Shown here: positions 101-19,745 of the stretch, one piece after another
How positions within the stretch are numbered: position 1 is the first letter of the stretch
Layout of the letters: each line of letters opens with the position of its first letter
DNA from: Puniceicoccaceae bacterium
Lineage (GTDB): Bacteria > Verrucomicrobiota > Verrucomicrobiia > Opitutales > JAFGAQ01
NCBI GenBank assembly: GCA_028285755.1
Contig: JANQOQ010000006.1
Coordinates: 1-64,000 of the forward strand
Direction: 5' to 3'
Length of the DNA stretch: 64,000 nt
Position numbers and translations under genes: made by a program
The notes under the pieces: generated by a model
Seen by the model: only the letters and a program-made list of their open reading frames with translations
Database searches by the model: none
What the model was told of the DNA's origin: nothing

Positions 101-346
101 CCTACTTAACGAATGGATATTCAGATTTTTGTAATTTTATTTGGTCAACTAGCCAGTCCATGCATCTTTCAATGGCATTGAAGAGGCCGACAGTTCGTTT
201 CCACAATAAGGTTGTTTCTTGAACTCAGTGTTAAAGCGATAGCTTTTCCCAGTTTAAGCTTTGAGTGAAACAGGCTTATCAGTCTGCCAGTTAGGGCCTC
301 GCTTTAGTATCGACTAAAAATTATAGGGATGTAGGGTTGATTTTGT

Positions 347-359
347 GTATACAGTATAT
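347..359. promoter_or_regulatory. Candidate GntR operator upstream of the oxidoreductase/sulfatase pair
   Basis: GTATACAGTATAT differs at one position from the inferred 13-bp palindrome GTATAC-N-GTATAC. It ends 31 bases before the preferred ATG at 391. The same motif recurs before the other transcription units of the first 28 kb. The rest of 101-346 shows no gene or clear hairpin. Confidence 0.6.
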
Positions 360-390
360 CAATATATCTTCAATTGAATGTTCCCCAATT

Positions 391-1740
391 ATGAATCGAA
401 GAACTTTTCTTAAAAATAGCTCTGCTTCAATACCCATAATAGCGATGCCGTATATAAGTCGATTAGGCGCAAAAGAATCTACGGCCAATCGTATAAATGT
501 GGCCTACATTGCTGTAGGTGGCTACGGCAAGTATGCTGCACAGGGAAATCTGAATCACAATACGGTTGCTTATTGTGATGTGGATGAAGCCTACGCTGCC
601 GAGACTTACAAATTGAGGCCTGAAGTTCCCCGTTTCCGTGATTTTCGGAAAATGTTTGATAAGCTGGGTTCCGGTATTGATGCCGTCAGTATTGCTACGC
701 CTGATCATACCCACTACCCGATTGCGATGGAAGCGATGCGCCGGGGTTATCATGTCTACCTACAGAAGCCGATGGCACACACGATTTCCCAGGTGCGTAC
801 ACTTACAAAGGCGGCTGAAAAATATGAAGTCGTCACGCAGCTGGGAGTTCAGGGGCATAGCCTTGAGGGGCTGCGCCTGCTCAAAGAGTGGCTGGATGCA
901 GGGGTAATTGGTAATGTGCTCGATGTGCATCTCTGGACCGATCGTCCAAAGTCACGAGATTATCATAGTTACGAGCAGGATGCCCCTGCACAGAAAGTGC
1001 CCGATACGCTGGACTGGGATTTATTTTTAGGGCCTGCCCGAAACCGTCCGTATAATCGCACATACCACCCCGTTTCCTGGAGAGGCTGGTGGGACTTTGG
1101 AAATGGACCTATAGGAGACATCGGAGTTCATTTATTTGATAATCTCGAATATTGCTTAAATTTGGGGCCTCCCGAATATGTCAGTGCACAAAGCCCCCGG
1201 GTTTCCAAAGTGGGCACACCGCGATGGATCAAGGTCGATTACTTCTACCCGGCTCGGGACGGTCGTATGCCGATTGCTGTACATTGGTATAGTGGCGAGC
1301 GTAATGGCGAGCAGCATACGCCCGCAAAGCTTCCCTACTGGCCCGATGGTCTCGAATATCGCAAGGATTCGGGTATGTATATTGTAGGTGAGCATGGTGC
1401 AATTTACATTGGGGATCAACGAGTTAGTTCTGTTCCTCGGGTCTATCCGAATAGTCTCTGGCAGGATTTCCGCAAGAGGCTCCCTCAGCAAACGCTAGAG
1501 AGGCCTGTGGGTAGTCATTATGATCAATTTTTTAACGCGATCCGCGATCATCGGGAGGCCAATTGTAATTTCGCTTATGCCGGGCCTCTGAGTGAGGGCG
1601 TTCTGGTTGGTAACCTTGCGGTGAAAACGCGCAAGACGATCCATTGGGACAGCAAAAACATGCGGGCAATAGGCGTTAAAGAAGCAGACGAATTTATCTA
1701 CTCACAGGAACCAAGGAAAGGATGGGAATATGTACTCTAG
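391..1740 (+). CDS. Gfo/Idh/MocA-family oxidoreductase, Tat-exported
   Basis: Predicted 449-residue NAD(P)-dependent sugar oxidoreductase. The chosen ATG gives a twin-arginine signal (NRRTFLKN) at the very N-terminus. A TTG at 337 would add 18 residues but would put the operator inside the gene. After the signal a Rossmann fold begins with a glycine-rich turn (AVGGYGKY). The catalytic-loop motif usually written EKP reads QKP here (YLQKPMAHT), with the lysine kept. The C-terminal half fits the Gfo/Idh/MocA alpha/beta domain. The downstream sulfatase starts 11 bases before this stop, so the two are translationally coupled. A role in periplasmic oxidation or epimerisation of a sugar from the polysaccharide is an inference; the substrate is unknown. 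Confidence 0.85.
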   Translation: MNRRTFLKNSSASIPIIAMPYISRLGAKESTANRINVAYIAVGGYGKYAAQGNLNHNTVAYCDVDEAYAAETYKLRPEVPRFRDFRKMFDKLGSGIDAVSIATPDHTHYPIAMEAMRRGYHVYLQKPMAHTISQVRTLTKAAEKYEVVTQLGVQGHSLEGLRLLKEWLDAGVIGNVLDVHLWTDRPKSRDYHSYEQDAPAQKVPDTLDWDLFLGPARNRPYNRTYHPVSWRGWWDFGNGPIGDIGVHLFDNLEYCLNLGPPEYVSAQSPRVSKVGTPRWIKVDYFYPARDGRMPIAVHWYSGERNGEQHTPAKLPYWPDGLEYRKDSGMYIVGEHGAIYIGDQRVSSVPRVYPNSLWQDFRKRLPQQTLERPVGSHYDQFFNAIRDHREANCNFAYAGPLSEGVLVGNLAVKTRKTIHWDSKNMRAIGVKEADEFIYSQEPRKGWEYVL

Positions 1741-3136
1741 AACAATAATCGTTAATCTTGTCGCAATAGTGTTATCTTCAAGCCTTTGGGCAGCCTCTGA
1801 AACGAAGCTCCCCAATATTGTCTGGATCATGGCCGAAGATATTGGAACAGATCTAGCTTCCTACGGCACCCCGGGAGTTCAAACGCCAAACCTGGATCAA
1901 ATGGCCGCAAATGGCCTGCGTTTGAACCGCCTTTATTGCACCTCGCCGATTTGTTCGACGAATCGCACGGCTATGATGACGGGTATGTATCAGACCAGCA
2001 TTAATGGCCATCACCACCGCAGTCATCGGGTAACTCCCTATGCACTCCCAGACGGGATAATGCCGATAACGACTTATCTGGCTGAACAGGGTTATTACCT
2101 TGCTCTTGGTTGTGGCTATCAGAACAAGACAGATCTAAACTTTGATCAAAGCTCGATTGAGTGGGATGGTGATGATTGGTCGGGCAGGGCAGAGGGTCAG
2201 CCCTTTTATGCGCATATCCAACTCAGGGTTACCCACCGCGGAGACTGGTGGGAGGAGGTACGTGCAAACTCCCCCGATCCCGTAAGTGTTGACGAGATCG
2301 AGTTGCCCCCCTACTTACCCGATCACCCCGAAATCCGTAAGGACTGGGCAATGTATCTGGACCAGATCGAAAAAGCGGACGAGGAGGTTGGTGAAATTAT
2401 TCAGCGATTGAAAGATGAAGGTATTCTTGAAAATACCTTACTTATCTTCATTGGCGATAATGGCCGCTGCGTTCATCGAGGGAAGGGCTTCCTATACGAG
2501 GACGGTATTCGGGTGCCGGGTATCATTCACTGGCCGGGCAGGGTTGAGCCCGGAATGGTATCGGACGAATTGGTAAGCACGATCGATATCTCTGCACAAG
2601 TGCTGGCTGCAGCGGGGGTGGAGATTCCGGAATATATGCAGGGTCGTGCGTTCTTAGAGGAAGGCCCCAGTGAAAGAGACTTTGTCTATGCCGCAAGAGA
2701 TCGTTGGGATGAAGTTTACGATAAGTCGCGCGCAATCATAGGCCATCGTTTCAAGTATATCCGAAATGACATGCCGGAGGTGCCTGTTTTTACCTACCAG
2801 GAGTACCTTGAGATGGTGCGCCCAATACGACCTATTCTCTGGGACTTATATCAGGCAGGCGAGATGGACGAGACTCAGGCTTACTACATGGCACCGGAAA
2901 AACCACGGGAAGAGATCTTTGATCTTGTAAAAGACCCTTGGGAGACTCGTAATCTTGCTGAGAACCCGCGATACGCCTGGGTCTTGGATTCCATGCGCAG
3001 ATTCCTTACTCAATGGGAGGAACAGACTAACGATATGGGTCGTCTTGAAGAGTCTTTTGATAGTCTGGATGAAAGAACCCAGAACCGCATTCGCCTCAGA
3101 AATGAAAAGCTGGCGAGTGGAGATGCAGTTCAGTAA
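1730..3136 (+). CDS. Secreted sulfatase (S1 type) with an atypical active-site motif
   Basis: A 468-residue formylglycine-sulfatase-family protein with an N-terminal signal peptide ending around WAAS. Family landmarks are LPNIVWIMAED for the metal aspartate, a TPNLDQMA stretch, and IGDNGR for the distal metal site. The active-site region reads C75-S-T-N-R79 followed by TAMMTGMYQT. The family consensus is C/S-x-P/A-x-R, so threonine replaces the proline or alanine needed for efficient formylglycine formation. A HHHR stretch follows. The start overlaps the preceding oxidoreductase by 11 bases and is preceded by AAGGAAAGG. It should remove sulfate esters from the polysaccharide unless the altered motif prevents maturation. 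Confidence 0.88.
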   Translation: MYSRTIIVNLVAIVLSSSLWAASETKLPNIVWIMAEDIGTDLASYGTPGVQTPNLDQMAANGLRLNRLYCTSPICSTNRTAMMTGMYQTSINGHHHRSHRVTPYALPDGIMPITTYLAEQGYYLALGCGYQNKTDLNFDQSSIEWDGDDWSGRAEGQPFYAHIQLRVTHRGDWWEEVRANSPDPVSVDEIELPPYLPDHPEIRKDWAMYLDQIEKADEEVGEIIQRLKDEGILENTLLIFIGDNGRCVHRGKGFLYEDGIRVPGIIHWPGRVEPGMVSDELVSTIDISAQVLAAAGVEIPEYMQGRAFLEEGPSERDFVYAARDRWDEVYDKSRAIIGHRFKYIRNDMPEVPVFTYQEYLEMVRPIRPILWDLYQAGEMDETQAYYMAPEKPREEIFDLVKDPWETRNLAENPRYAWVLDSMRRFLTQWEEQTNDMGRLEESFDSLDERTQNRIRLRNEKLASGDAVQ

Positions 3137-3230: not shown

Positions 3231-5996
3231 CTATCTGACGATGCTAAAGGTTTCAAGTATGCGGCCTGGTTTGCCGTCACCATCTCCGACTGCATAGATG
3301 GTTACCTTAAGTTCATCCGGTTTTACCTCGAAGTAGCCGTAGTGGTGATCTTCATCATTACGCAGCGCGATAAACTCCTGCTGCGGAACCACAAAGCGCG
3401 AAAACTGATTACCGGTCTCGGATTTCTTGCCGGATGGGCTGATCTTACAATAGATGACCCCTTCACCTGCGCGATATCGGTTCTTGTGGTCTGACATGAC
3501 TTCTGGGTTTGAGGGGTGTCCCAGTATTGGGTAGGTGCGCTCATAGTTTTGATCATGTGCGCTGAGATTGAGATCGACCTTATGCTTTTCAAGAATGGGT
3601 ATGATGCGTTCGGAAATGCTGATTTTCGAAGGATGGCTTCTGCCAAACCCATAAATGGGCTCATGGTGGTATACTATAAGCCACTCCTGGCCGCGTTCGC
3701 GGGCTTCACGTAAATCATTATCGAGCCACTCCAGTTCGTCGTCGGTAGGTTCGATGTTAACCAGGAAGAATCCGGTGAAATGTACATTGCCAATATCAAA
3801 GGAATACATCTTGCCAAGAGCATCGCCCTCAGGGTGTGCAAATCGGGGCGCCCAGTCAGAGAGTTCCTCGTCGAGGTAGATTTCGTGATTACCATATTGG
3901 GTCATAAAAGGAATCTCAGAGATTAATGGCTCATAGAGATTAAACCAAGCATCCACGGCTTCTCCGGTATTTGCAAAGCGGCCATCCCGGTTGGCATAGG
4001 CGTAATCTCCTCCGCCGATAACGAAAAGGGGCTCTAACGCTTTGACTTCCTTCATGATTTGCAGAGTGCCGGTGGAGTTTCCGTCAATGCGCCCGTGAAG
4101 GCCGGTATCCGAAACGAATGCAAAGTCGAACGAAGCTTCTTTTTCTCCCGGTGCGGTGCGAAAGCTACGGATATCCGAGAATGCCGGTTTCATTCCATAG
4201 TCATTGGAAACGCGATACTCATAGCTTGTGTCAGCCTTTAGGGTGTCGATTGAGACTCTATGAATATAATCACTTCCGGGTGAAGGATAGCTGATACCTT
4301 CTTTCTCGGAGAATACCTCTGTTCCCATTTCGCGATACTCAACGATGCTTGGATTATTACCGAAGTGGGTGTTCCAGGTGATGGCTATGCTACTGGCGGG
4401 ATCGTCTGTCCATGAAATGTGGATTTGCTCAGCGAGGCCGACAGGTTCCGGGTTTAGATAGAGCAGCCAGTCATCGCCTCCCTCCGGTGGAGTGAGATTC
4501 TGCCCATCCTCAGTAGTTCCGGCATAAAAGCGTTGGTGAGGTTTTTGGGCATTGATCCATTCCACCCCGAAGACACCGCCTTCTATGGAGACATTAACGG
4601 TTTCAGTGCGCTCAAGATAGACCAGATAGTATTGCCCGGGGCTCGCAAGGCAAAAGCCGATATCCACGAGATCCTGCCGGGGTTTCATCTCATACCAGGG
4701 AAACATTTCCAGGGCATCCCATGCCATTTTCACAATATCGTGGCGGCGTTGCACCCGCTCAGTGAGATCCATCGACCCACTGAAACCGGAGGAAGAGTTC
4801 CCGTTATTGTCCGCAAAGCCAAGGCTCGCTCCCGACATGGTGATGACATAGGTGTTTTTGCGAATATCATCATCACTGTAATCATGCCCGATCGCTCGTA
4901 TATGCACAGAGTTATTTGACCACAAGGTTTCTTGTGCGAATAGTGGCTTGGAGGGATGCAGGTTTTCAAGGAGCCCTTCGCTGAGCCTAGTGCGGTCAAT
5001 CGTTTTAGGGCCCTGGAGGGTGCCAAAGGTACTCCACTCGGAATCTTTGTGTGGGTCGTCCCCCGTGCGGTTATGGACGGTAATCGGGTGGTTGTAGATG
5101 TCGTATTTGCGAATCATCGCGCCTAGCTCTGCTACTTCTTCCTCCACAAAGTAAATATACCGACGCATATCGGGCTCCGGACCGGCAACATTATAAAGCA
5201 TATTCCCATAGTGACCAATGCGCGCCATTGTGTAGCGAACGTAGAATTCCTGGTCTTTCGGATCATCAGGATAGCCCCCGTGCTTGCCAAAAAAACCGGC
5301 AAACGGGTAAACAATAATCCCTCTTTGCTCCAGATCATCGAGAATGCGTTCCATCTTTCGGAATTCTTCAGCGTTTAATGGCCAAAGGTCCGGAGTATCC
5401 CAACCACGCCCGCGACCCACTTCATCCCGATTCAGAAAATGGCTTGCTATGGATAGTGTATTGTAGCCCTGATTCTGGAACCATCTGAGGAACAAGTTAC
5501 GCTCCACGTCTGGCCAGTTCTCCGCAAAAAAGCGATCTCCCACATGCAACGCACGCATGAAAAAAGGATTTACACCCCTGGCGAACCATATCGAATTCAC
5601 GGGGTTTACTTTGATAGGATCATAAGGGGCGTACCGCCAGAGGCACCGGAATGTTCCTTCAAAGCTACCCGAACCATCGCTGAAGCGAGCCACATACTTC
5701 CAATATCCCGGAAAACCCGGTCGAAAGCGAATCCGCCAGGTATTGCCTCCGTCGTAGAAACCCCAGGCATCTATTTGCTTGCCGGTAGGATCCGTGTAGG
5801 TCACTTCGAGAATAACATCCCGATAAGGATCATCATACGTAGTGTTATTGATAAAGGACTTTTCAAATTTGCTGTATCTAATAATACGTTCGGGTTCTTC
5901 CTGTGCTTGCGAAATCAGGGGTGTTAAAACCGTGCATACTAGAACGATGACTAGGGTTAGGCTATAATGGGATGTGCTTGGATTGTGTATGATCAT
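3231..5996 (-). CDS. Secreted fusion: DUF5060/glycosidase-like TIM barrel plus purple-acid-phosphatase module
   Basis: A 921-residue protein with a signal peptide (residues about 12-32). Residues about 35-125 resemble a DUF5060 beta-sandwich, and about 130-470 an apiosidase/DUF4038-like barrel. Residues about 545-620 look like the fibronectin-like domain of purple acid phosphatases, and about 625-915 like the metallophosphoesterase core. Core landmarks are D630 (SDTG), D664 and Y667 (GDYAY), N703-H704 (GNHE), H777-H778 (YHHEP) and H814 in AHDQNYER. Q816 stands where the family has the second His of GHxHxYER, so one metal ligand looks replaced. It is last in the tctCBA operon, 11 bases after tctA. 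Cleavage of a glycosidic and a phosphate bond on one substrate is possible but only inferred. Confidence 0.75.
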   Translation of the reverse strand: MIIHNPSTSHYSLTLVIVLVCTVLTPLISQAQEEPERIIRYSKFEKSFINNTTYDDPYRDVILEVTYTDPTGKQIDAWGFYDGGNTWRIRFRPGFPGYWKYVARFSDGSGSFEGTFRCLWRYAPYDPIKVNPVNSIWFARGVNPFFMRALHVGDRFFAENWPDVERNLFLRWFQNQGYNTLSIASHFLNRDEVGRGRGWDTPDLWPLNAEEFRKMERILDDLEQRGIIVYPFAGFFGKHGGYPDDPKDQEFYVRYTMARIGHYGNMLYNVAGPEPDMRRYIYFVEEEVAELGAMIRKYDIYNHPITVHNRTGDDPHKDSEWSTFGTLQGPKTIDRTRLSEGLLENLHPSKPLFAQETLWSNNSVHIRAIGHDYSDDDIRKNTYVITMSGASLGFADNNGNSSSGFSGSMDLTERVQRRHDIVKMAWDALEMFPWYEMKPRQDLVDIGFCLASPGQYYLVYLERTETVNVSIEGGVFGVEWINAQKPHQRFYAGTTEDGQNLTPPEGGDDWLLYLNPEPVGLAEQIHISWTDDPASSIAITWNTHFGNNPSIVEYREMGTEVFSEKEGISYPSPGSDYIHRVSIDTLKADTSYEYRVSNDYGMKPAFSDIRSFRTAPGEKEASFDFAFVSDTGLHGRIDGNSTGTLQIMKEVKALEPLFVIGGGDYAYANRDGRFANTGEAVDAWFNLYEPLISEIPFMTQYGNHEIYLDEELSDWAPRFAHPEGDALGKMYSFDIGNVHFTGFFLVNIEPTDDELEWLDNDLREARERGQEWLIVYHHEPIYGFGRSHPSKISISERIIPILEKHKVDLNLSAHDQNYERTYPILGHPSNPEVMSDHKNRYRAGEGVIYCKISPSGKKSETGNQFSRFVVPQQEFIALRNDEDHHYGYFEVKPDELKVTIYAVGDGDGKPGRILETFSIVR

Positions 5997-6007: not shown

Positions 6008-7495
6008 TCAGGCTTTTTTCTTGCGGAACTGCAGGAATAGGGAGCCGATTATCAAAAGGATTAAAGTGAGTGAAATGGGGCGCATAAAAATACCGGCGAG
6101 GTTATCGGAATGGTCAATGAGCGTGCGGCGCAGATTGACCTCTGCCATGGGTCCCAAAATAATGCCGATAACCAGAGGCGCGATCGGATAGGCCATTTGT
6201 CGCAGGAAATAAGCAACGATTCCAAATCCGATCATCAGATAGACATTAAAGATTGAAAAATCGAAGGAGTAAGAGCCAATCACGGCAAACAGAGCAACCA
6301 CAGGCATCAGCAGCGTAACCGGGATACGCAGCACATAGATAGAGACTCGGCTCATTAAAAATCCGCAGATCAGCATGGTAAAGGAGGCCATCAGCAAAAT
6401 GGCCGACATTTGGGGGATGAATCCCGGATTCTCTACGGGCAGACGCGGCCCAGGCACAATTCCATTGAGCATGATCGCGCCCAGCAGCATCATGGCTGGT
6501 GGGGAGCCGGGTACCCCCAGGGTAAGTAGTGGAATAAGTGCGCCGCCGATGCAGGCATTATTCGCGGTTTCGGCAGCGACTACACCTTCCAGTGAGCCTT
6601 TACCATACTCCTCTTTTTCCTTGCTCGCCTTTTTGGAAACATCGTAAGAAAGCCATGCGGCAATATCCTCACCGACCCCCGGTATCGAACCCACACCGAC
6701 TCCAATCAGCCCGGATCGTATGCCTACGGTAACCTTTCGGTAAATGTATTTGAAGTTGGGCCACACACGTGAGATTGCTGAGGGCTTTGAAGACGCATCC
6801 TTCTTAGAGGATTGAACAATCGTCTGGATGATTTGGGGAATTGCAAATCCCCCCAGAATCACCGGTATGGGGGTTATACCACCGATGAGCTCCGGAACGC
6901 CAAACGTAAAACGCTGATGTCCGTGCATGGGATCCATGCCTATGGTTGCGGCAAGCATCCCCAAGAGTCCCATGATCCAGCCTTTCACCGGACTGTCCGC
7001 CGAGGTGAGCGACCCACAAATCAACACCCCGAAGAGCGCCAGCAATAGATACTCTGAGGACTGAAACATGAGTGCGGTTTTACTCAATATCGGGATAAAC
7101 ATGAGCATCGCGAGCACACCAAATACTGTGCCTATAAACGACATGATCGTGGCCGTGGCGATGGTTTCACCGGCCCGCCCTTTGAGGTTGAGCGGGTAAC
7201 CCTCGACGGCAGTGGCGGCGCCCGCCCCGGTGCCGGGTATATTGAGCAGGATAGCGGGGTGGGAACCTCCATAAATAGCGCCCACGTAAATCCCCATCAA
7301 TGCGAGCATGCTGGCTTCTGTAGGTAGATTGAGGCTATAAGTCACCGTTGTGAGCAGGGCAATCCCCAGGGTGGCTGAAAGCCCCGGAAGCGCCCCGAAA
7401 ATAATACCCACGACTACTGTAAATAGTAGCAGGAAACAGTTAAAGGGCGTGATAAGACTACCCAGGCTAGTGAAGAATGTCGTAAAGTGTTCCAT
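6008..7495 (-). CDS. tctA: Tripartite tricarboxylate transporter, large membrane subunit TctA
   Basis: A 495-residue polytopic membrane protein with roughly twelve hydrophobic segments. It has the family's glycine-rich repeats: a G-LPGLSATLG stretch near residue 36 and GVGSIPGVGEDIAAW around residue 270, plus LGVPGSPPAMMLLGA near residue 325. This is the usual length for TctA. It forms the permease of a TTT system that imports carboxylated solutes by secondary transport with a periplasmic binding protein. The gene starts 4 bases after tctB stops and is followed by the fusion phosphatase gene. In this setting the cargo is more likely a sugar acid or acidic oligosaccharide than citrate; that is inference. 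Confidence 0.93.
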   Translation of the reverse strand: MEHFTTFFTSLGSLITPFNCFLLLFTVVVGIIFGALPGLSATLGIALLTTVTYSLNLPTEASMLALMGIYVGAIYGGSHPAILLNIPGTGAGAATAVEGYPLNLKGRAGETIATATIMSFIGTVFGVLAMLMFIPILSKTALMFQSSEYLLLALFGVLICGSLTSADSPVKGWIMGLLGMLAATIGMDPMHGHQRFTFGVPELIGGITPIPVILGGFAIPQIIQTIVQSSKKDASSKPSAISRVWPNFKYIYRKVTVGIRSGLIGVGVGSIPGVGEDIAAWLSYDVSKKASKEKEEYGKGSLEGVVAAETANNACIGGALIPLLTLGVPGSPPAMMLLGAIMLNGIVPGPRLPVENPGFIPQMSAILLMASFTMLICGFLMSRVSIYVLRIPVTLLMPVVALFAVIGSYSFDFSIFNVYLMIGFGIVAYFLRQMAYPIAPLVIGIILGPMAEVNLRRTLIDHSDNLAGIFMRPISLTLILLIIGSLFLQFRKKKA

Positions 7496-7499
7496 TGGG

Positions 7500-8111
7500 C
7501 TAGGGGAGGGGCACTTTCAAATATTCACTGAAAAGGAACCCCATGAGAAAGGGGAACAGAACGGAGATTGCACTCAGCAGGGCGTGGCGTTTCCAGCCCT
7601 TGAGTCCGCCAGCCGGACGGTGGAAGTATTGAGTAAACGCAAAGAGGAATATCACACTACTGCTGAAGTAGTTGGCTCCTTCAGGCGTGGCTAGGTAACG
7701 AAAGACATAAACATGGTGCAGCGACAAGCGCTGGACGGTATTGGATACATCGTCAAACCAGTGCAGACTCAGAAAAGCGATGTAGCTGAGCAATAATCCG
7801 ATGATGATCACCAGTTTTCGACCTGCCGGGTGGGTTAGGGACGAACGTATCTGAGATAAACAATATGTGAAAAAGTCTTTGGCCCCTTCGAGCTTCACGG
7901 CACGCACAATCAGATAAACGGCACATACAGCCAGCAAAGAGCCAATAATGAGCGGAAAGCTTGCCGGCGAAACATACCAGGTGTTTTCTACACCAGCAAA
8001 AGTTCCACCGATGGGCATTTGAAGTGCCTCGATGATAATTGCCGCGCTTAATATCAACAGGATAACCCCGGTGATAATGTCTGCCTTGCGTAATGGTTTT
8101 TCGGAGAGCAT
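7500..8111 (-). CDS. tctB: Tripartite tricarboxylate transporter, small membrane subunit TctB
   Basis: A 203-residue membrane protein with about four hydrophobic segments, including one near residue 15, one near 55 and two near the C-terminus. The family is poorly conserved; topology, size and position between tctC and tctA support the call. I chose the ATG at 8111, directly after the tctC stop, because an upstream start would overlap tctC by about 75 bases and add a non-membrane leader. TctB is the accessory subunit needed for transport with TctA. It has a loop longer than usual between the second and third hydrophobic stretches. Confidence 0.85.
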   Translation of the reverse strand: MLSEKPLRKADIITGVILLILSAAIIIEALQMPIGGTFAGVENTWYVSPASFPLIIGSLLAVCAVYLIVRAVKLEGAKDFFTYCLSQIRSSLTHPAGRKLVIIIGLLLSYIAFLSLHWFDDVSNTVQRLSLHHVYVFRYLATPEGANYFSSSVIFLFAFTQYFHRPAGGLKGWKRHALLSAISVLFPFLMGFLFSEYLKVPLP

Positions 8112-8113
8112 CT

Positions 8114-9157
8114 TTATTCTATGGGTTCGATTCCGAGCGCTGCAGGAGAGCGAACAGTAATACCCAGATCGTGGAGCATCCACGTCCAAATACGCTCACT
8201 TTTCGAGGCAATCGCATTTGCCTGCTGTCCGTGGTAGCCGTATAGAGTCAGCAGACGTGTTTGCGCGAACTGTTCGACTTCCTGAGTTTTCATTGCGGCT
8301 TCGTAAGCCGCAGCCACTTTTTCTAAAATAGGCGCTGGTGTATCAGCCGGGAGTGCAAAGCCCAGCCATTGTTTAATGGGGATTTCGCGGATGAGCGGGA
8401 ACTGCTCTGCAGCAGTGGGGATGGTAAGCTCCTCAGAAAATTGAAATGCCTGCTCCTCAAGCATGGCAAGAGGCCTTAGGTTACCACTCCGGATCAGTTC
8501 GGACTGTTCTGAGATGGAGGTCAGCACGGCATCGACTTCGCCCGTCAACGCTGCTGTCTGGCTTTTCTGGCTACCCTGAAAAGGAATATACTGAAACTGC
8601 ACTCCGGAGGCCTTTTGCAGAATCAATAATTTCGTATGCCAAAGCCCACCTGTAGAGGATGCTGCAACCGCTATGGTGTTTGGAGTTTTTTGTGCTGCCT
8701 CAATGAAGTCATCCAACGTCATCCAGGGCGAATCCTCAGGCACAGAGATAACTCCGGGAGCCCCGGCGACCATAAAGTAAGTCCAATCACGTGTGGTTGT
8801 ATGATGCACACCCATAACAGCTGCAGGCATGATTGATTCTGAGAAACCACCCCAGTTATACCCGTTACGTTTTTGCTGCCAAATATAGTTGAGTGCTGCT
8901 CCTCCGCGTGCACCTGTGCGATTAACTACGTTTATTTTCACACCCAGTTCCGGTTCCATCGTGGCGGCGATCAGGCGGTTCACTGCATCCGTGCCTCCTC
9001 CGGCTGCTGAAAAGCATGCGATTTGGATGGGCTGGGTAGGCCAGCTACGATCGGAGTTCTCTGAATTTTCTAAAGGAGGTGTACAAGCGGTAAACAACAA
9101 CGTCGCACAAACGCCCATAAAAATAAAGGTGTATAAATGACTAAGGGGCAAACTCAT
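8114..9157 (-). CDS. tctC: Tripartite tricarboxylate transporter solute-binding lipoprotein TctC
   Basis: A 347-residue Bug/TctC-family binding protein. The start at 9157 (MSLPLSHLY) gives a lipoprotein signal with lipobox LFTAC; an upstream ATG at 9202 would cross the operator. Family features are a W-P..PI start, the glycine-rich AAGGGTDAVNR loop, GARGGAALNY, and the PFQGSQKSQTAALTGEVDAV segment that shapes the ligand pocket. TctC captures a carboxylated ligand through two water-mediated contacts and delivers it to TctAB. First gene of a four-gene operon with gaps of 2 to 12 bases. The anchor suggests retention at the cytoplasmic membrane. Confidence 0.92.
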   Translation of the reverse strand: MSLPLSHLYTFIFMGVCATLLFTACTPPLENSENSDRSWPTQPIQIACFSAAGGGTDAVNRLIAATMEPELGVKINVVNRTGARGGAALNYIWQQKRNGYNWGGFSESIMPAAVMGVHHTTTRDWTYFMVAGAPGVISVPEDSPWMTLDDFIEAAQKTPNTIAVAASSTGGLWHTKLLILQKASGVQFQYIPFQGSQKSQTAALTGEVDAVLTSISEQSELIRSGNLRPLAMLEEQAFQFSEELTIPTAAEQFPLIREIPIKQWLGFALPADTPAPILEKVAAAYEAAMKTQEVEQFAQTRLLTLYGYHGQQANAIASKSERIWTWMLHDLGITVRSPAALGIEPIE

Positions 9158-9161
9158 TAAT

Positions 9162-9174
9162 GGATACTGTATAC
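9162..9174. promoter_or_regulatory. Candidate GntR operator just upstream of tctC
   Basis: GGATACTGTATAC differs at one position from GTATAC-N-GTATAC. It lies 5-17 bases before the tctC ATG, so a bound repressor would cover the leader and the ribosome-binding region. The TonB receptor on the other side has its own copy at 9325. Confidence 0.6.
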
Positions 9175-9324
9175 CGTTAGCATTCTTAAGATGCTTGTTC
9201 AAGGATTTCTTACAAATTAATTTAAAAATAGGGCATTCTTTTAAAATTTATATTCTCCAACAGGCACTTATTACAAAGGGTCATTATATTAATGCGAAGA
9301 AATATACTTGACTATCGTGTTATT

Positions 9325-12951: not shown

Positions 12952-13019
12952 AACATATTCTAATGCATAATGTATGTTTTTGGACTCAGTTACAAGTCTT
13001 TGATTTTATTTGCTATATT

Positions 13020-13032
13020 GTATACTGTATTA
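13020..13032. promoter_or_regulatory. Candidate GntR operator between regulator and propeller-protein genes
   Basis: GTATACTGTATTA has an intact left half and a right half with two differences. A TTGATT at 13000 and TATACT at 13021 form a possible promoter with a short 15-base spacer, the operator covering the -10 box. The ATG at 13070 is 37 bases downstream; the GntR start is 68 bases away. Confidence 0.55.
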
Positions 13033-13069
13033 CATTGACGGTCATGGAATTCGTCATACCATTGGTTTC

Positions 13070-15625
13070 ATGTTAAGGCGTTTTATTTTCTTATTCTCTT
13101 TATTCCCTGTTTTATCCCTTTATCAGGCAAAAGCTGAGGACCATTATGTAATCTCAGCAGTTGAAGATTTTACGGCTCCCAAGAGTCAACAGTGGTACGT
13201 TCCTTTCTACGAAGAGACCCGAGCTGAAGACAAAAACCTGCATGGGCTTGCAGTGCGTTCAAATTTGTATCCTGCGAGGCCATCTGCCGCAGAATACACT
13301 TTCAAAGGGGAGTCTGGCAGCTACCAGATTCAGTTGGAAGCAGTCGCCGAGGAGGATGGACAAAGCTTCTACGAAGTTTGGCTTAACAGTGAATATTTAG
13401 GTACCCGGCGCACCCAACCTGTGCTTGAAAAGCGCGTGCCCCAAAAATTGGATTACGGGATCAGGGAGATAGAGCCGGAAGATGTAATAAGAGTGGTCTT
13501 TTACTCGCATACAAATATGCAGATTCCGGAACATGATGGCTATGCATGGTCCCGTGGGCGTTGGCGTAACTTGCATCTGACGGCACATCCCGCTATTCCT
13601 GAAAATCTTGCAGAAGCGGAGGCAATTCAGGTGTGGGAAACTCTTGAGGTCGATTTAGCCGGCTATGCGAACGTGAGTAGAGTGGAGCTCACCGATCCTT
13701 GGATGGATAGCTATGAGCTGCCTGTCGACAATATAGGCTCTGATACCCCTGTAGTTCGTTTTTTGCCAAATAAATCAGGTCGCTATGGGCTGAAGATTTA
13801 TAACCAGGATGGGCAGCTATTGGATCTGTTATCCTATGAGGCTCACTTCTTTAAGTTTTCAGGACCGTTATCCAAGCGCTCTGCTTACCCATGGAGATTT
13901 ACCGATGCCTTTGATCGTTCCAAAAACCTTTTTGGCTACGTTATCCCCTCAGATTTCTTTAATCAGGATAATCTGGAGAAAGAGTTCCGGGAACTAACAC
14001 ACTTAAAGGAACTGGGTGGACAAGTGCTGCTTATGCAGGACTTTGAGTTTGAAACAAGTTCCTGGGTTTCAGAAGGCGAGATTGTATGGAGCGAAATTCG
14101 TAAAGACATGGATGCGTTTTTAGCTAAAACAGCATTCCTTTTAAGGCGGGATTTGGATCTGGTGATTTTGGGGCAGCCGACCGCCAATTTGAAAGAAACT
14201 TTGGGAGAAAAGTCATACGACGAAGTGCGGGAATACCTTAAGCTCCGTTTTAGTAATATTTCATACCTTAGCATACCTGAATTATTCGAAGATCCTTTTG
14301 GCGGGGATTTGCCATTCTATCCCCCAATCTCTCAGCGGTTTATCGCGGATAACCCATTCCAGGATGCGATTATTTTGCACTCATATCAGGAAACTCTACC
14401 GGGAGATGTTAGTGAGACGATAGCGAGCCATTTCCTGCAAGGCAAAGTTGTTTTAGTAGATTATCAAAACCCGCATAAGAATGATCTGATCGCTAAAATA
14501 GCCACCACGAATCAATGGGTGGGCACATTTCAGAAAGATAACATTCTCCCGGCAGAATATGCAGAGAAAGCAGTAAGCGAATGGGCGAGTACCGGAGTTG
14601 ACGAGCCTGGTTACATTGGGCAAGGGAGTTACCCGGATCTGACTATCGACTCCGCAGGTATTATGCACATCACTTATGCACGGGAAGGTAAGGGTTATTA
14701 CCGCACGAAAGATAGTCGTGGGTTAAGCGAAGAAGCTTTTACCGGCATCACTTATACCGGTGGTTTGCAGGATGGACCGCAACGTAGCGACCCGGAAATA
14801 GCTATAGGAGCTGAGGGTGAGGTATTTGTATTAATCGCGAATACCCTGTCCAGAAAATCGGGAGGCAAGTGGCAAGTGCTATCAACGGAAGTAGGCAGGG
14901 ATACCTCAATGGTTACAGACAGCCGGGGGAATTTGTTCATCAATAAGCGTGGCGGTTTCCACGGTGGCCATGTCGGTCTGTGGGTGCTCCCGGCAGGGCA
15001 GGATGTATTGCAGCCCGTAACGAAGGATCCGGATACGGGCACGGAGCAGGGTAATGACTGGTTAGGGGGAGATCATCCATACGGTCAGTTATTTGTAGGG
15101 CAGGACGATGCCCTTTATTTAACCTATCGCCAGGGCAAACCCGATTACATTGCATGGCGGAACACTCAAGATATTGGCCAAACCTGGACGGGAGGCGGCG
15201 TTTACGGCGGAGTCACCTGGCAGTCCGAAGCTTCAAATGGAGTAGTAGCTTCCGGGAGTGTTCCGGTGGTGATTGGCCCGGTTGGACATGTGTTTGCTAT
15301 ACTGCATGGGGCTGATGAGTTCAAATTTCTGGGAAGAGCACTGAGTTGTGGAAGCCGTGACTTGCCTGATATATTGTCCACACAAACGGGAGCAGTCGTC
15401 TTTGCCGCTTTTGGAGGTAAATACTCCCTGTTTGCAAATGGAGGCTTCAGTGAGGAAAATTATCTGATTAGCCCTGATAATGAGCCTGTGGGCTTTGTCG
15501 CACTTGCGGAAAACCCTGTGGACAGCGGTATTTGGGCAATTTATGAAACCGGTGCTAATCTGAATAAGGAGCAGCTTTCCGGAACCAGCAAAATCTGGCT
15601 CACTCAGTTACCGATGAGCGAGTAG
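13070..15625 (+). CDS. Large secreted protein with a sialidase/BNR-like propeller half; function unknown
   Basis: An 851-residue protein with a signal peptide (MLRRFIFLF to about AKAED). The start at 13070 avoids a 20-residue leader overlapping the operator. Residues about 25-180 look like a carbohydrate-binding beta-sandwich. Residues about 265-490 contain an alpha/beta stretch, possibly a barrel-like or glutamine-amidotransferase-like segment (residue 455 onward: HSYQETLPG). From about 530 on, repeated strands of the form PDLTIDSAGIMHITY and DPEIAIGAEGEVFVLI resemble BNR/PL24-PL25-type propellers. I do not recognise a named family. Its place beside the regulator, with an operator copy, suggests a core enzyme of the locus, possibly a lyase or glycosidase. 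Confidence 0.7.
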   Translation: MLRRFIFLFSLFPVLSLYQAKAEDHYVISAVEDFTAPKSQQWYVPFYEETRAEDKNLHGLAVRSNLYPARPSAAEYTFKGESGSYQIQLEAVAEEDGQSFYEVWLNSEYLGTRRTQPVLEKRVPQKLDYGIREIEPEDVIRVVFYSHTNMQIPEHDGYAWSRGRWRNLHLTAHPAIPENLAEAEAIQVWETLEVDLAGYANVSRVELTDPWMDSYELPVDNIGSDTPVVRFLPNKSGRYGLKIYNQDGQLLDLLSYEAHFFKFSGPLSKRSAYPWRFTDAFDRSKNLFGYVIPSDFFNQDNLEKEFRELTHLKELGGQVLLMQDFEFETSSWVSEGEIVWSEIRKDMDAFLAKTAFLLRRDLDLVILGQPTANLKETLGEKSYDEVREYLKLRFSNISYLSIPELFEDPFGGDLPFYPPISQRFIADNPFQDAIILHSYQETLPGDVSETIASHFLQGKVVLVDYQNPHKNDLIAKIATTNQWVGTFQKDNILPAEYAEKAVSEWASTGVDEPGYIGQGSYPDLTIDSAGIMHITYAREGKGYYRTKDSRGLSEEAFTGITYTGGLQDGPQRSDPEIAIGAEGEVFVLIANTLSRKSGGKWQVLSTEVGRDTSMVTDSRGNLFINKRGGFHGGHVGLWVLPAGQDVLQPVTKDPDTGTEQGNDWLGGDHPYGQLFVGQDDALYLTYRQGKPDYIAWRNTQDIGQTWTGGGVYGGVTWQSEASNGVVASGSVPVVIGPVGHVFAILHGADEFKFLGRALSCGSRDLPDILSTQTGAVVFAAFGGKYSLFANGGFSEENYLISPDNEPVGFVALAENPVDSGIWAIYETGANLNKEQLSGTSKIWLTQLPMSE

Positions 15626-15664: not shown

Positions 15665-16630
15665 CTATAGAAGGGTATCGAAGAGATATTCGATACTCTT
15701 GTTTGGATTTCGTTCCTGGGTAAGCTCTTTGATTTTCTCACTGTCCAGTTTATCCGCCAGGCTTTCGAGTTTGCGGGTAAGCTTAGTCACCAGATTAAAA
15801 TGTTCTACACGATCTACTTCCTTGGATACCACATCGTAGGAAAACCAGTCATCCGTATAACCGCATTGCTTAACGTAGTAGAGGAATTCGATGCTGTCCC
15901 AGAGGTTAACGGAGCCGGGGAGCATATCCCAGTCCCAGTAGCGGTCATTATCATTGAGGTGGACATAGAACATCTTACCGGCGCGATGGAGTAGGGCGAC
16001 CGACTGTGCAGGTCGCTCATTGGCCTGAATGGCATGCCCGATATCAAGGGTCGCTCCCAGATTATCGGCCCCAACACTATTGCAAAGCACCAAAACCTCA
16101 GCCGCGGAGCCGATCAGGCAACGCTGGCGGGGATCGTTCCATTTATACTCGATGCATATTTGAGTATCCCGGTTATGCGCGCAAATTTCTGCCAAAGCCT
16201 CTTCAGAGTGTTGGTAGGCATCGAAATAATTCATTTCAAAAACGTAGTCACTGCCTTCATTCAAAGGGCAGGTAGATATTCGCTTACAGCCTAAGCCATT
16301 CGCCATATCTATGGCCTTGCGAAAGTCATCTATTACCTCCTGGCGCTCAGCAGCAATTGCGGAAGAGAAAGAGCCTCGCCACCACTTGCCGGTGCGCCGG
16401 GTGCGCACATTGACTGCCGCAATACCCAAGCCGGCATCCTGCATACGTGCACCGAGTTCTTCCAACGGGATTTCTGTGAAATCAGCGGGGTAACACAGCT
16501 CAAGCCCGTCGAGGCGCTCTACCTGCTTGGCCATATTGATTTTCTCGATAATCGAGTTATCCGGATGATACTCAATGTATCGATTTTTTACATTACCCAG
16601 AAAGGCGCTGATCGCAGCTAATTTATTCAT
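15665..16630 (-). CDS. Xylose-isomerase-like TIM-barrel sugar isomerase/epimerase
   Basis: A 321-residue cytoplasmic protein of the AP-endonuclease-2/sugar phosphate isomerase superfamily. Supporting motifs are ICIEYKWNDPRQR (strand with a metal Glu), GATLDIGHAIQANE (Asp and His ligands) and FYVHLNDNDRYWDWD (His-Asn-Asp loop). The overall pattern resembles L-rhamnose isomerase-like and epimerase members, but the substrate cannot be assigned. It is the third gene of the cupin operon and overlaps the preceding isomerase by 4 bases. A role in interconverting an unusual monosaccharide from the polysaccharide is inferred from context. Confidence 0.8.
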   Translation of the reverse strand: MNKLAAISAFLGNVKNRYIEYHPDNSIIEKINMAKQVERLDGLELCYPADFTEIPLEELGARMQDAGLGIAAVNVRTRRTGKWWRGSFSSAIAAERQEVIDDFRKAIDMANGLGCKRISTCPLNEGSDYVFEMNYFDAYQHSEEALAEICAHNRDTQICIEYKWNDPRQRCLIGSAAEVLVLCNSVGADNLGATLDIGHAIQANERPAQSVALLHRAGKMFYVHLNDNDRYWDWDMLPGSVNLWDSIEFLYYVKQCGYTDDWFSYDVVSKEVDRVEHFNLVTKLTRKLESLADKLDSEKIKELTQERNPNKSIEYLFDTLL

Positions 16631-17448
16631 ATTAAAGTCTTAAGGTAGTCCAAATCTCTTTGGTTGTTATTGATTTCGTTTGAAATCGTTTCTTGTTTAT
16701 CGGGCAGTGCGTCTATCCAGCTTTCTATGTAGATATTACAGTCAGGTGCCTGTTCTTTGATTGATTGGATAACCGAGGAAAGGTTGATAATTCCCTCCTC
16801 CAATGAGCACCCTTTAATGTAGAAACCGGTCCCGTTGCGTTGAGAAGTTACGTTTTTAATGTGGACGCTCCGCGTATAAGGCAGGAGTGCGTTAAGTGTT
16901 TCATAAACTCCGTATAGTTGGGAAATCGAATTGGCCACATCGTAACAAATGGCGACCTGCCGCTGATCGTAGTTTTTCACTAAATCACTAAGCTCATAGG
17001 GCGTGAATGTGAAATGGTTTTCTACACACAGCGTAATGCCGCTTTCAGTTATGTAAGATAATACGCTGTCAATAAGCTTGCCCAGTCCAGATATGCTTAT
17101 CGGAGTGTTCTCACTCTCCGGGACAATCCGTAAGATATTCGAATTCAGGTGCTTGGATATCTCGAGGTTTTTGAGAATCCTTTCTTTGCTCGATCCACGC
17201 ATCCCGACTTCCAGTTCAATGGCGTTGGCTTCGGCGTAGTTGAGAATCGAATCAAGGCCATCCCCGGATAGATCTTCCAGCTTCAGGTTATCGCATAGTT
17301 GAACCGTTTCTGCCCCCATATTTTTGGCCATTTGCAGGAATTCGAGAGCCGATATCGGTGCGTTTGGCGACCACGTTTCGGTCCCGACCGACCACCTGAA
17401 TGCATAACTTCCAAATCCTACTTTCATATCAGTGTTTGTGAGAACCAT
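16627..17448 (-). CDS. Second TIM-barrel sugar isomerase/epimerase of the cupin operon
   Basis: A 273-residue cytoplasmic AP-endonuclease-2-like barrel. Supporting segments are VCVENHFTFTPYEL (Glu ligand), AICYDVANSISQ (Asp ligand) and RSVHIKNVT (His), ending with a CNIYIESWID strand. It starts with ATG overlapping the cupin stop (TAATG), a classic coupling; a second in-frame Met at 17427 gives a better domain start. It resembles hydroxypyruvate-isomerase or inositol/tagatose epimerase-type proteins, but no specific reaction can be read from sequence. Confidence 0.8.
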   Translation of the reverse strand: MVLTNTDMKVGFGSYAFRWSVGTETWSPNAPISALEFLQMAKNMGAETVQLCDNLKLEDLSGDGLDSILNYAEANAIELEVGMRGSSKERILKNLEISKHLNSNILRIVPESENTPISISGLGKLIDSVLSYITESGITLCVENHFTFTPYELSDLVKNYDQRQVAICYDVANSISQLYGVYETLNALLPYTRSVHIKNVTSQRNGTGFYIKGCSLEEGIINLSSVIQSIKEQAPDCNIYIESWIDALPDKQETISNEINNNQRDLDYLKTLI

Positions 17449-17840
17449 TATTTATTGGGTGTTTTGGGAAAGCTCACGTCTTCGTAAAACTGATACTGGT
17501 TAAAATCAACCGGAGGCGTAAAAAAGCATACGATTTTCATCACTTCTTCTGAGGTGTTGCGCACCATATGGACGGCACCTGCCGGAAATTTCACTGCATG
17601 CCCTGCCTGAATAGACTCAATTTCTCCATCCACGTAAACTTCTCCCTGACCGCTGATGATGTAGATCAGCTCTTCTTCATTAGGGTGGGCATGGGCTGGC
17701 TTCACCGTTTCCCCAGGCTCAATGCGAATTACGTTCATCGAAAATTGTTCAGACTTACCATCTTCCGGGTGAAAAAGCCATTTCAGCTTTCTCCCGGGCA
17801 TATCCAGGGTTTCGATGTCTTTTTCATGAACAATAACCAT
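17448..17840 (-). CDS. Small cupin protein (KdgF-like candidate)
   Basis: A 130-residue single-domain cupin. Motif 1 reads PAHAHPNEEELIYIISGQG (HxH plus Glu) and motif 2 FPAGAVHMVRNTS (His), so a full metal site is present. Size and context fit KdgF-type cupins that linearise 4,5-unsaturated uronates released by lyases, or sugar-binding cupins of unknown role. First gene of a three-gene operon with two TIM-barrel isomerases; the promoter gap at 17841-18040 is shared with the divergent secreted protein and holds an operator copy. The KdgF link is inference. Confidence 0.85.
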   Translation of the reverse strand: MVIVHEKDIETLDMPGRKLKWLFHPEDGKSEQFSMNVIRIEPGETVKPAHAHPNEEELIYIISGQGEVYVDGEIESIQAGHAVKFPAGAVHMVRNTSEEVMKIVCFFTPPVDFNQYQFYEDVSFPKTPNK

Positions 17841-18004
17841 GGTTCTAATTAATAAAGTCTTTTTGTGCGTTGAAAGAGAAGATGAGATTATAGTTCAAGA
17901 ACGGGAAAGTGTTTCGGTTTTGGGGGCCAATGATGGTTTTCATAGAAAACTGAATTTGGGTGGGATAGTGTTCGACAAGTCGAATAAACTTTCAATAACA
18001 ACAG

Positions 18005-18017
18005 TAATACTGTATAC
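18005..18017. promoter_or_regulatory. Candidate GntR operator between cupin operon and secreted beta-sandwich gene
   Basis: TAATACTGTATAC: right half perfect, left half with two differences from GTATAC-N-GTATAC. It ends 23 bases before the ATG at 18041. The embedded CTGTATACAG is itself a perfect 10-bp palindrome. Confidence 0.6.
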
Positions 18018-18040
18018 AGTCATACGGTCAAGAAAATAGA

Positions 18041-18805
18041 ATGTTCAATCTCAGAAAAGTTTACAATCCATCGCTTCCTTTTATACATGCTGATAAGTCA
18101 GCAAAGGTTCTACTCACTACAATATGCTTTGGCCTTACTGGCTTTACTCAGGAATTATTGCTTGAAGATTGCCTTACTACCAAGCAGTCGAATGCCGGTA
18201 TTAAGGCGAAGAAGATGGATGGAGGCCGTTTTACGGAAAAAGGCTGGATCTCTGAAGATCCTCGCGGTTATTTGCGAATAGAGCTTACGGAAGCTTTACC
18301 TTTTGAGGGTATGCTGGAAATTGAATTGGATGCTTTCCATTGGGCTGAAGCAAGTGCCTCCTCAGGAAAGGACCGCAAGATTCACTTTATCAATTTGTTT
18401 TCCAACAGGCTGGGAGACCATCACTTTGAAGACGGAGGAACTGCTGAGGATGCCATCATCACACTCCGTATGGGTTCGGATGAAGAAGGCCTCCCACGAT
18501 ATGGAGATACTTTTAAGGTGCTGTGGGCATCCAAAGGTGCCAAGCGTGCAGGGGGGAGTGATTATCACGAAAGGCAAGCGCGCTTAAACGAACCGTATGA
18601 ATGGTCTACGAATCCGGTTTTTAAGGTTTTCTGGAGCCGTAAGAACCAAACCATTCGTGTCTTAGTAGATGATAAGGAGTTTATCGAATTACCCTGGAAA
18701 AACCAGGTTGAACCCTTTCGCTACATTTTTTTGGCAAGGGCCGGAGACTTTTACTCACTGCAGGGAGTTTACTTTAAAAATCTGAAAATCTTTAGCTTGG
18801 AATAG
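18041..18805 (+). CDS. Secreted or anchored beta-sandwich protein of unknown function
   Basis: A 254-residue protein whose N-terminus has a hydrophobic stretch (about residues 22-40), consistent with a late signal peptide or anchor. The rest is strand-rich and ends RYIFLARAGDFYSLQGVYFK followed by a short tail, resembling LamG/concanavalin-type sandwiches and DUF1961-like proteins associated with polysaccharide loci. No catalytic residues can be assigned. Its last 14 bases overlap the convergent Tat-exported isomerase gene. It lies directly behind an operator copy, so it is probably a regulon member that binds or modifies the polysaccharide. Confidence 0.72.
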   Translation: MFNLRKVYNPSLPFIHADKSAKVLLTTICFGLTGFTQELLLEDCLTTKQSNAGIKAKKMDGGRFTEKGWISEDPRGYLRIELTEALPFEGMLEIELDAFHWAEASASSGKDRKIHFINLFSNRLGDHHFEDGGTAEDAIITLRMGSDEEGLPRYGDTFKVLWASKGAKRAGGSDYHERQARLNEPYEWSTNPVFKVFWSRKNQTIRVLVDDKEFIELPWKNQVEPFRYIFLARAGDFYSLQGVYFKNLKIFSLE

Positions 18806-19745
18806 GTTTATAAGCGCTCAGCCAGCGGTTCAGGACTTTCAGGTCACGTTGGTGAGCCTTGATCACTTCTGGCATTTCGTGCTTTTCAAAGGCGCGGTAA
18901 CCCATCCATTCCATGTGCAGGCAAATCGGCATTTGCGGGAGATCTTCCATGATATAGTCAAAGATGCCTTGGTTCACAAACCCTTCATCCAGCGGTACGT
19001 CTTTGAACTGGTCTCCACGCTCTCCGAACCAACGTCCGTCCTTAACATAGACAGAGCGGATGTGACTTTTGAGCAAACCAACCACCGTTCTCCAGGCCGT
19101 GCCACTGGTTTTGATCAAATGCCGGGTATCCAGCGCGACTCCGATGTGATTGGGGTTAATACCTTCCAGGAGCGTTGCTAAATCCCACCCGAGGTTGCCG
19201 AAGTTCCTGCCGCCGGAATGCGTTTGGTAAATGCCCTGGATGCCGATACTCTCATTGGCAGCCGCGAGAGACTCAGCCTGTTTGCGAAAATGATCCAGTT
19301 GAGGGAGCAGTGGCTTTTCATGATCCACACGATAATAACCCATCCGGTAATACTTCACCCCGGAATCGACCAAAGTCTGAAGGAGTTTTGGATTTTGAGC
19401 GTTCTCGGTATTATTAATTCGGGTTGCAGCGATGAGTATGCACTTGTCCTTCTTCTGAAGAGCTTCCTGCATTTTCGGCACCTCAGAGGCTGCATTTTCC
19501 GGCTCAATATGACCTTCCGGGCGGATTGTAGCCTCAAGACCATCGGCTCCGGTTTGTGCGATGGCATCTGCGAGTTGGGTGAAATCGAGGTTTTCAAAAG
19601 GCTTACCAAAGACAGCAATGGGCCAGCTATTGGCTCCTTTAACCGAAGCCAGAGAATAATGGGTTGGTGATGCGGCAAGCAGCGCTCCTGCACCCAGGCT
19701 TTTGATAAAATCACGACGACTAGCAAGCTTTCCTCGGGGATTCAT
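18792..19745 (-). CDS. Tat-exported TIM-barrel sugar isomerase/epimerase-like protein
   Basis: A 317-residue protein with a clear twin-arginine signal (SRRDFIKSLGAGALLAAS) followed by an AP-endonuclease-2-like barrel. Motifs include the GLEATI strand, IQGIYQTHSGGRNF, IGVALDTRHLI (Asp) and RSVYVKDGRW, with CLHMEWMGY near the end in place of the usual Glu strand. It is the last gene of a sulfatase/DUF2264 operon; its ATG overlaps the previous stop by one base. Its own 3' end overlaps the convergent secreted-protein gene by 14 bases. A periplasmic sugar isomerase of this fold is common in Verrucomicrobiota and Planctomycetota, but substrates are mostly unknown. Confidence 0.82.
   Translation of the reverse strand: MNPRGKLASRRDFIKSLGAGALLAASPTHYSLASVKGANSWPIAVFGKPFENLDFTQLADAIAQTGADGLEATIRPEGHIEPENAASEVPKMQEALQKKDKCILIAATRINNTENAQNPKLLQTLVDSGVKYYRMGYYRVDHEKPLLPQLDHFRKQAESLAAANESIGIQGIYQTHSGGRNFGNLGWDLATLLEGINPNHIGVALDTRHLIKTSGTAWRTVVGLLKSHIRSVYVKDGRWFGERGDQFKDVPLDEGFVNQGIFDYIMEDLPQMPICLHMEWMGYRAFEKHEMPEVIKAHQRDLKVLNRWLSAYKPIPS

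Follow-up and report, generated by a model that had tools for sequence, protein, structure and literature searches.

Gene content of the locus

The window, a stretch of 64,000 nucleotides from contig JANQOQ010000006.1 of a Puniceicoccaceae bacterium, carries on its minus strand an open reading frame of 921 aa (3231-5996), which begins with ATG, ends with a stop codon at 3231-3233 and has no internal stop. From the N to the C terminus the product consists of a signal peptide, DUF5060, an apiosidase-like barrel and a complete purple-acid-phosphatase-like (PAP-like) module (Table 1). The four Pfam matches (DUF5060, Apiosidase, Pur_ac_phosph_N and Metallophos) each exceed the curated cut-off. Inspection of the N-terminal sequence revealed a hydrophobic run at residues 13-24. 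The glycosidase half stops at about residue 514 and the PAP module starts at about 516-523, so that there is hardly any linker between them. The GC content by codon position is alike in the two halves (0.55/0.40/0.54 and 0.57/0.39/0.53).

Table 1. Features of the fusion gene and its surroundings, in positions of the window.
Feature	Position	Strand	Evidence or remark
Fusion gene, 921 aa	3231..5996	-	single ORF
Putative signal peptide, residues 1-32, cleavage site approximate	5901..5996	-	hydrophobic stretch LTLVIVLVCTVL, sequence inspection
DUF5060, residues 40-105	5682..5879	-	Pfam PF16586, 58.9 bits, E 6e-16; own-genome scan
Apiosidase-like TIM barrel, Pfam match residues 161-394	4815..5516	-	PF13204, 37.7 bits, E 2e-9
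E274, barrel, invariant	5175-5177	-	41-sequence alignment
E356, barrel, invariant	4929-4931	-	41-sequence alignment
Strand-rich C-terminal domain of glycosidase half, ~residues 440-514	4455..4679	-	AF2 model, high confidence
Pur_ac_phosph_N (FN3-like), residues 523-614	4155..4430	-	Pfam PF16656, 60.4 bits, E 3e-16
Metallophosphoesterase domain, Pfam match residues 625-815	3552..4124	-	PF00149 (Metallophos), E 2e-13
Q816, replacing second His of GHxH (kidney-bean PAP H325)	3549..3551	-	ligand columns
TctA, tripartite tricarboxylate transporter, directly upstream of fusion, 11 bp	6008..7495	-	PF01970, 440.6 bits
TctB subunit	7500..8189	-	Pfam PF07331
TctC receptor	8114..9202	-	Pfam PF03401
Sulfatase, convergent to fusion	1730..3136	+	Pfam PF00884
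Gfo/Idh/MocA oxidoreductase, glycoside 3-dehydrogenase relative, convergent to fusion	337..1740	+	
BNR-like propeller domain	14510..15622	+	homologues fused to same glycosidase in other phyla

The initial annotation had described a glycosidase-like barrel and an FN3-metallophosphoesterase in one secreted chain closing a transporter operon. The Pfam order and the intact frame agree with it, its coordinates are exact, with the gene on the minus strand, and the signal-like stretch is in keeping with secretion. The operon runs TctC-TctB-TctA-fusion on one strand, the fusion gene following TctA at a distance of 11 bp. The frameshift or stop between the parts that would have undone this description was looked for and none was found, while the domain search and structure prediction gave two complete folds in one chain. 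Its remark that no standard family has such a layout also held: no description of the DUF5060/apiosidase-PAP architecture was found in the open-access literature, which is weak evidence of absence, and within that literature the architecture is new, its component folds being known. The NCBIfam search returned no model matching the fusion protein or its glycoside hydrolase (GH) relatives.

The convergent sulfatase scores 698 bits against a homologue in the sister genus (L021/L036), which keeps this close homologue beside its own fusion. Since the host genome (G000, 4.25 Mb) has about 140 sulfatase matches, a sulfatase next door is weak evidence by itself. Above the cut-offs this genome also encodes eight DUF5060 proteins and five PAP_N proteins, four of them besides the fusion. 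Neither a phosphorylated substrate nor Pho-type genes are visible in the context, the neighbours being sulfatases and carboxylate transporters. The context suggests glycans bearing sulfate or carboxylate groups, because sulfatases, tricarboxylate/2-hydroxycarboxylate transporters and Gfo/Idh-type genes lie near the fusions. The sulfatase of the window reads CSTNR where the formylglycine signature C-x-P-x-R is expected, and its homologue in the sister genus (G004) is identical there.

The glycosidase half and its wider family

The AF2 model of the glycosidase half is confident. Its best fold match is the GH140 apiosidase 8t9w (Z 33.8, 371 residues), and a second GH140 structure follows with Z 31.4, both giving the barrel the GH140 fold. 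The DUF5060 protein 4n0r matches with Z 31.2 over 452 residues and was the single significant hit (E 6.5e-21) of a sequence-profile search against the PDB. The N-terminal DUF5060 followed by a GH-A-like barrel with two Glu residues shows the features of DUF5060 glycosidases. The GH and PAP halves were aligned separately, a joint alignment in which PAP fragments had fallen on the GH half having been dropped; in 41 aligned sequences E274 and E356 are invariant, and both align with Glu in 4n0r.

BVU_0362 (PDB 4n0r), a DUF5060 putative glycoside hydrolase, has the same layout of DUF5060, barrel and C-terminal strands, but its identity to the present protein is 18%, it has no PAP module and its own function is putative. 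With the GH140 apiosidases (8t9w; BT_1012, 5msy/3kzs) the barrel fold and the Pfam Apiosidase match are common, whereas the identity is 15-16% and the GH140 proteins have no DUF5060 part in the aligned range. PF12904, the C-terminal domain of GH140, had no match in the fusion protein at E up to 1. The catalytic pair of BT_1012 was described as Asp187/Glu284, with Glu carried by 17% of PF13204 members (PMC4032388), in apparent contrast to the Glu pair in the family of the fusion protein.

This GH family comprises about 50 loci in several phyla, including Planctomycetota, Verrucomicrobiota, Sumerlaeota, Hydrogenedentota, Armatimonadota, Acidobacteriota, Bacteroidota and others. Its members are also found fused to a BNR-like propeller (at either end), to beta-lactamase-like domains, to a sulfatase together with a beta-lactamase-like domain, and to PA14. 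In a planctomycete (L053:4977-9467, plus strand) a chain of 1496 aa unites a sulfatase, a beta-lactamase-like domain and a DUF5060 glycosidase of the same GH subfamily (52% identity). There the GH is C-terminal and the ester-hydrolase domains, a sulfatase and a beta-lactamase-like domain in place of the PAP of the window fusion, are N-terminal. The joining to such hydrolases is what one would expect of a GH whose substrate carries ester decorations.

A propeller of the kind fused to this family is also encoded in the window. The gene at 13010-15625 (plus strand, 871 aa) has no Pfam match, and its C-terminal 370 residues form a BNR-like propeller, homologues of which are fused to the glycosidase family in Sumerlaeota, Bacteroidota and others. 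An ulvan-lyase-type (BNR_4) identity was considered for this partner but not borne out: only one member exceeds the BNR_4 cut-off, and a profile search against the PDB led to generic Asp-box propellers.

The PAP-like half and its metal site

The PAP half was poor in the full-length AF2 model, and its reading rests on the module folded alone (32 sequences; pLDDT 90.9, pTM 0.93). This model matches kidney-bean PAP with Z 42.9 and rmsd 2.3 over 372 residues, and together with PF16656 and PF00149 the whole-module match gives the N-terminal FN3-like and metallophosphoesterase arrangement of PAPs. The whole module, including the FN3-like domain, is common to plant-type PAPs (kidney bean 1kbp/4dhl; wheat phytase 6gja), but the identity is 22%, Gln replaces the second GHxH histidine, and here the module is joined to a glycosidase or has one as its neighbouring gene.

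Six of the seven PAP metal ligands are kept and conserved in the clade (D630, D664, Y667, N703, H778 and H814). The remaining one, which would be the second GHxH histidine (H325, an Fe(III) ligand, in kidney-bean PAP), is absent and Q816 stands in its place; the assignment of the ligands to the Fe and Zn sites follows kidney-bean PAP. The last position of GHxH is Gln in all six linked members with that column, as against His in 24/24 outgroup PAPs. The equivalent of H202 of kidney-bean PAP is kept (H704), and H788 aligns near H295/H296. Conserved residues specific to the clade are R636/D638/N640, N669/D671/R673 and H788. In a member of the clade from Bryobacteraceae (L161) the last metal motif reads CQDQ. 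With Gln in place of the last GHxH histidine across the whole clade, and QDQ at the motif in this unlinked acidobacterial member, phosphatase activity cannot be assumed.

From the fold and the residues, phosphate would be the default target of the PAP half. It is possible, if on the whole unlikely, that this half instead hydrolyses a different ester of the same glycan, be it a phosphodiester, a sulfate or some other acid ester, the His-to-Gln exchange altering the Fe(III) site. The clade-specific Q816, the further residues peculiar to the clade, and the sulfatase and beta-lactamase-like partners in other phyla are consistent with such an enzyme, whereas neither the other six ligands nor the purple-site Tyr is altered and the nearest fold is that of plant PAPs, which hydrolyse phosphomonoesters. 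A distinctly smaller probability is given to a non-catalytic binding or structural module serving the glycosidase. One ligand is lost clade-wide and two in a relative, and inactive PAP-fold proteins exist, GAP50, one of the fold matches and presumably non-catalytic, being among them; on the other hand, six of seven ligands and the catalytic-type histidines are strictly kept, and the module retains its full length where it is a separate gene.

Linkage of the two halves and proposed function

The search for the same fusion in other genomes, which the initial annotation had suggested, returned full-length fusions in two more genomes, in three copies with 50-61% identity. Opitutales MAG.200 (G004, sister genus) has two, with about 60-61% identity to the window protein, both directly behind TctA and one overlapping the TctA end. 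The one of Lacunisphaera MAG004 (about 52% identity) lies in a GntR-Gfo/Idh-GH3-fusion row, with a 2-hydroxycarboxylate transporter and a class II aldolase alongside. In Opitutaceae IP29b_bin.74 and PL25a_bin.151 (gap 16 bp in each) and in Opitutales CSSed165cm_401 (gap 4 bp) the halves are adjacent genes on the same strand, the gene boundary coinciding with the fusion joint; in the first two a sulfatase gene lies directly upstream of the pair. An 80-residue remnant of a PAP half with two TGA stops was also seen in G004 (contig C290, 45458-45697, minus strand) and looks like a third copy in decay.

Some 1100 genome searches in Verrucomicrobiota covered overlapping samples (384 genomes at class, 387 at phylum and 372 at order level), and in them every member of this PAP clade was fused to or beside the GH; a scan of 85,000 species was seeded in the GH half only. 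Ordinary PAPs are well separated from the clade, whose E is about 1e-216 where the match that follows has 1e-25. The pairwise identities of the GH and PAP halves correlate with r 0.94 across six organisms or copies, and in a Mantel test 4 of 720 relabellings reached the observed correlation. One change of state is enough to account for the seven PAP-linked sequences of the GH tree, though support is modest (71/75). The Bryobacteraceae member, at L161 8825-10073 (plus strand), has a broken frame and lies away from the GH, which is on another contig; the co-occurrence there is by selection, as the search was confined to GH-bearing genomes.

The compartment was judged from N-terminal hydrophobicity alone. 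By this inspection all four fused forms have hydrophobic, signal-peptide-like N-termini, and in the split forms neither half has one. Fused or split, the two halves thus appear to stay in a common compartment, whichever that may be. The sulfatase of PL25a is also without a signal peptide by inspection.

Functional coupling of the two halves is well supported, since they are fused in three genomes and adjacent in three, diverge in a correlated manner and share the same apparent compartment; they very probably work on the same molecule. That phosphate scavenging and sugar release serve separate ends and merely share an exported chain is quite improbable. PAPs are common phosphate scavengers, and the host has its four other PAP_N proteins, but extracellular scavenging would be senseless in the three genomes whose adjacent halves are without signal peptides, which argues for a shared substrate, and the neighbours are sugar-catabolic, not of Pho type. 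A join of two genes by assembly error or a missed stop, for which nothing was found beyond the separate-gene form of relatives, can be dismissed: the frame is open, the codon-position GC is even, and the same architecture in independent assemblies is therefore not a chance join. The DUF5060/apiosidase-PAP fusion is real.

With about an even chance of being right, we propose a bifunctional enzyme of glycan or glycoside catabolism, in which the PAP half removes a decoration, the glycosidase half cuts the sugar bond and TctABC imports the product. The fusion protein would be exported, probably to the periplasm or the surface. Its PAP-like metallohydrolase half would take off a decoration of ester type, a phosphate monoester or diester being the most likely. 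The GH-A-type half (E274/E356) would then cut the glycosidic bond next to this decoration or shielded by it. The product, putatively an acidic sugar, would enter through the TctABC system of the same operon and pass to Gfo/Idh-type enzymes. We infer that both halves are active and act in sequence on one substrate, as well as the phosphate leaving group and the nature of the product. With one altered ligand and a setting of sulfatases and carboxylate transporters, esters besides phosphate may also be the target. The initial annotation had suggested phosphate removal and sugar cleavage on one phosphoglycan; its coupling is supported by fusion, adjacency and correlated divergence, while its phosphate part is weakened by the clade-wide loss of a PAP ligand and by a setting of sulfated and carboxylated sugars.

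It is tempting to speculate further, though this is less likely than the general proposal, that the fusion is a two-step enzyme for an undescribed phosphorylated or phosphodiester-linked acidic glycan. Its His-to-Gln PAP fold would unmask the sugar for the fused glycosidase, and it would represent a branch of a GH family that pairs its barrel with different ester hydrolases (sulfatase, beta-lactamase-like or PAP), each suited to another decoration.

The fusion or adjacency of a glycosidase and a PAP-like enzyme occurs in one order of Verrucomicrobia (Opitutales). Little is known about marine phosphorylated glycans, whose discovery would be aided by enzymes that hint at them. As the two halves exist both fused and split, nature provides a clean test of their functional coupling, and the ligand change across the clade poses a defined question on PAP chemistry. 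The GH family, without a named NCBIfam model, recurs with varied ester-hydrolase partners, and its substrate would unlock several systems.

Elsewhere in the window, three xylose-isomerase-like TIM-barrel proteins and an adjoining DUF2264 protein are encoded at 15665-19745 (minus strand), downstream of the propeller gene. The gene at 24809-27571 (minus strand) matches all three lambda-carrageenase (CGLA) Pfam domains, with an alpha-L-fucosidase and another sulfatase nearby.
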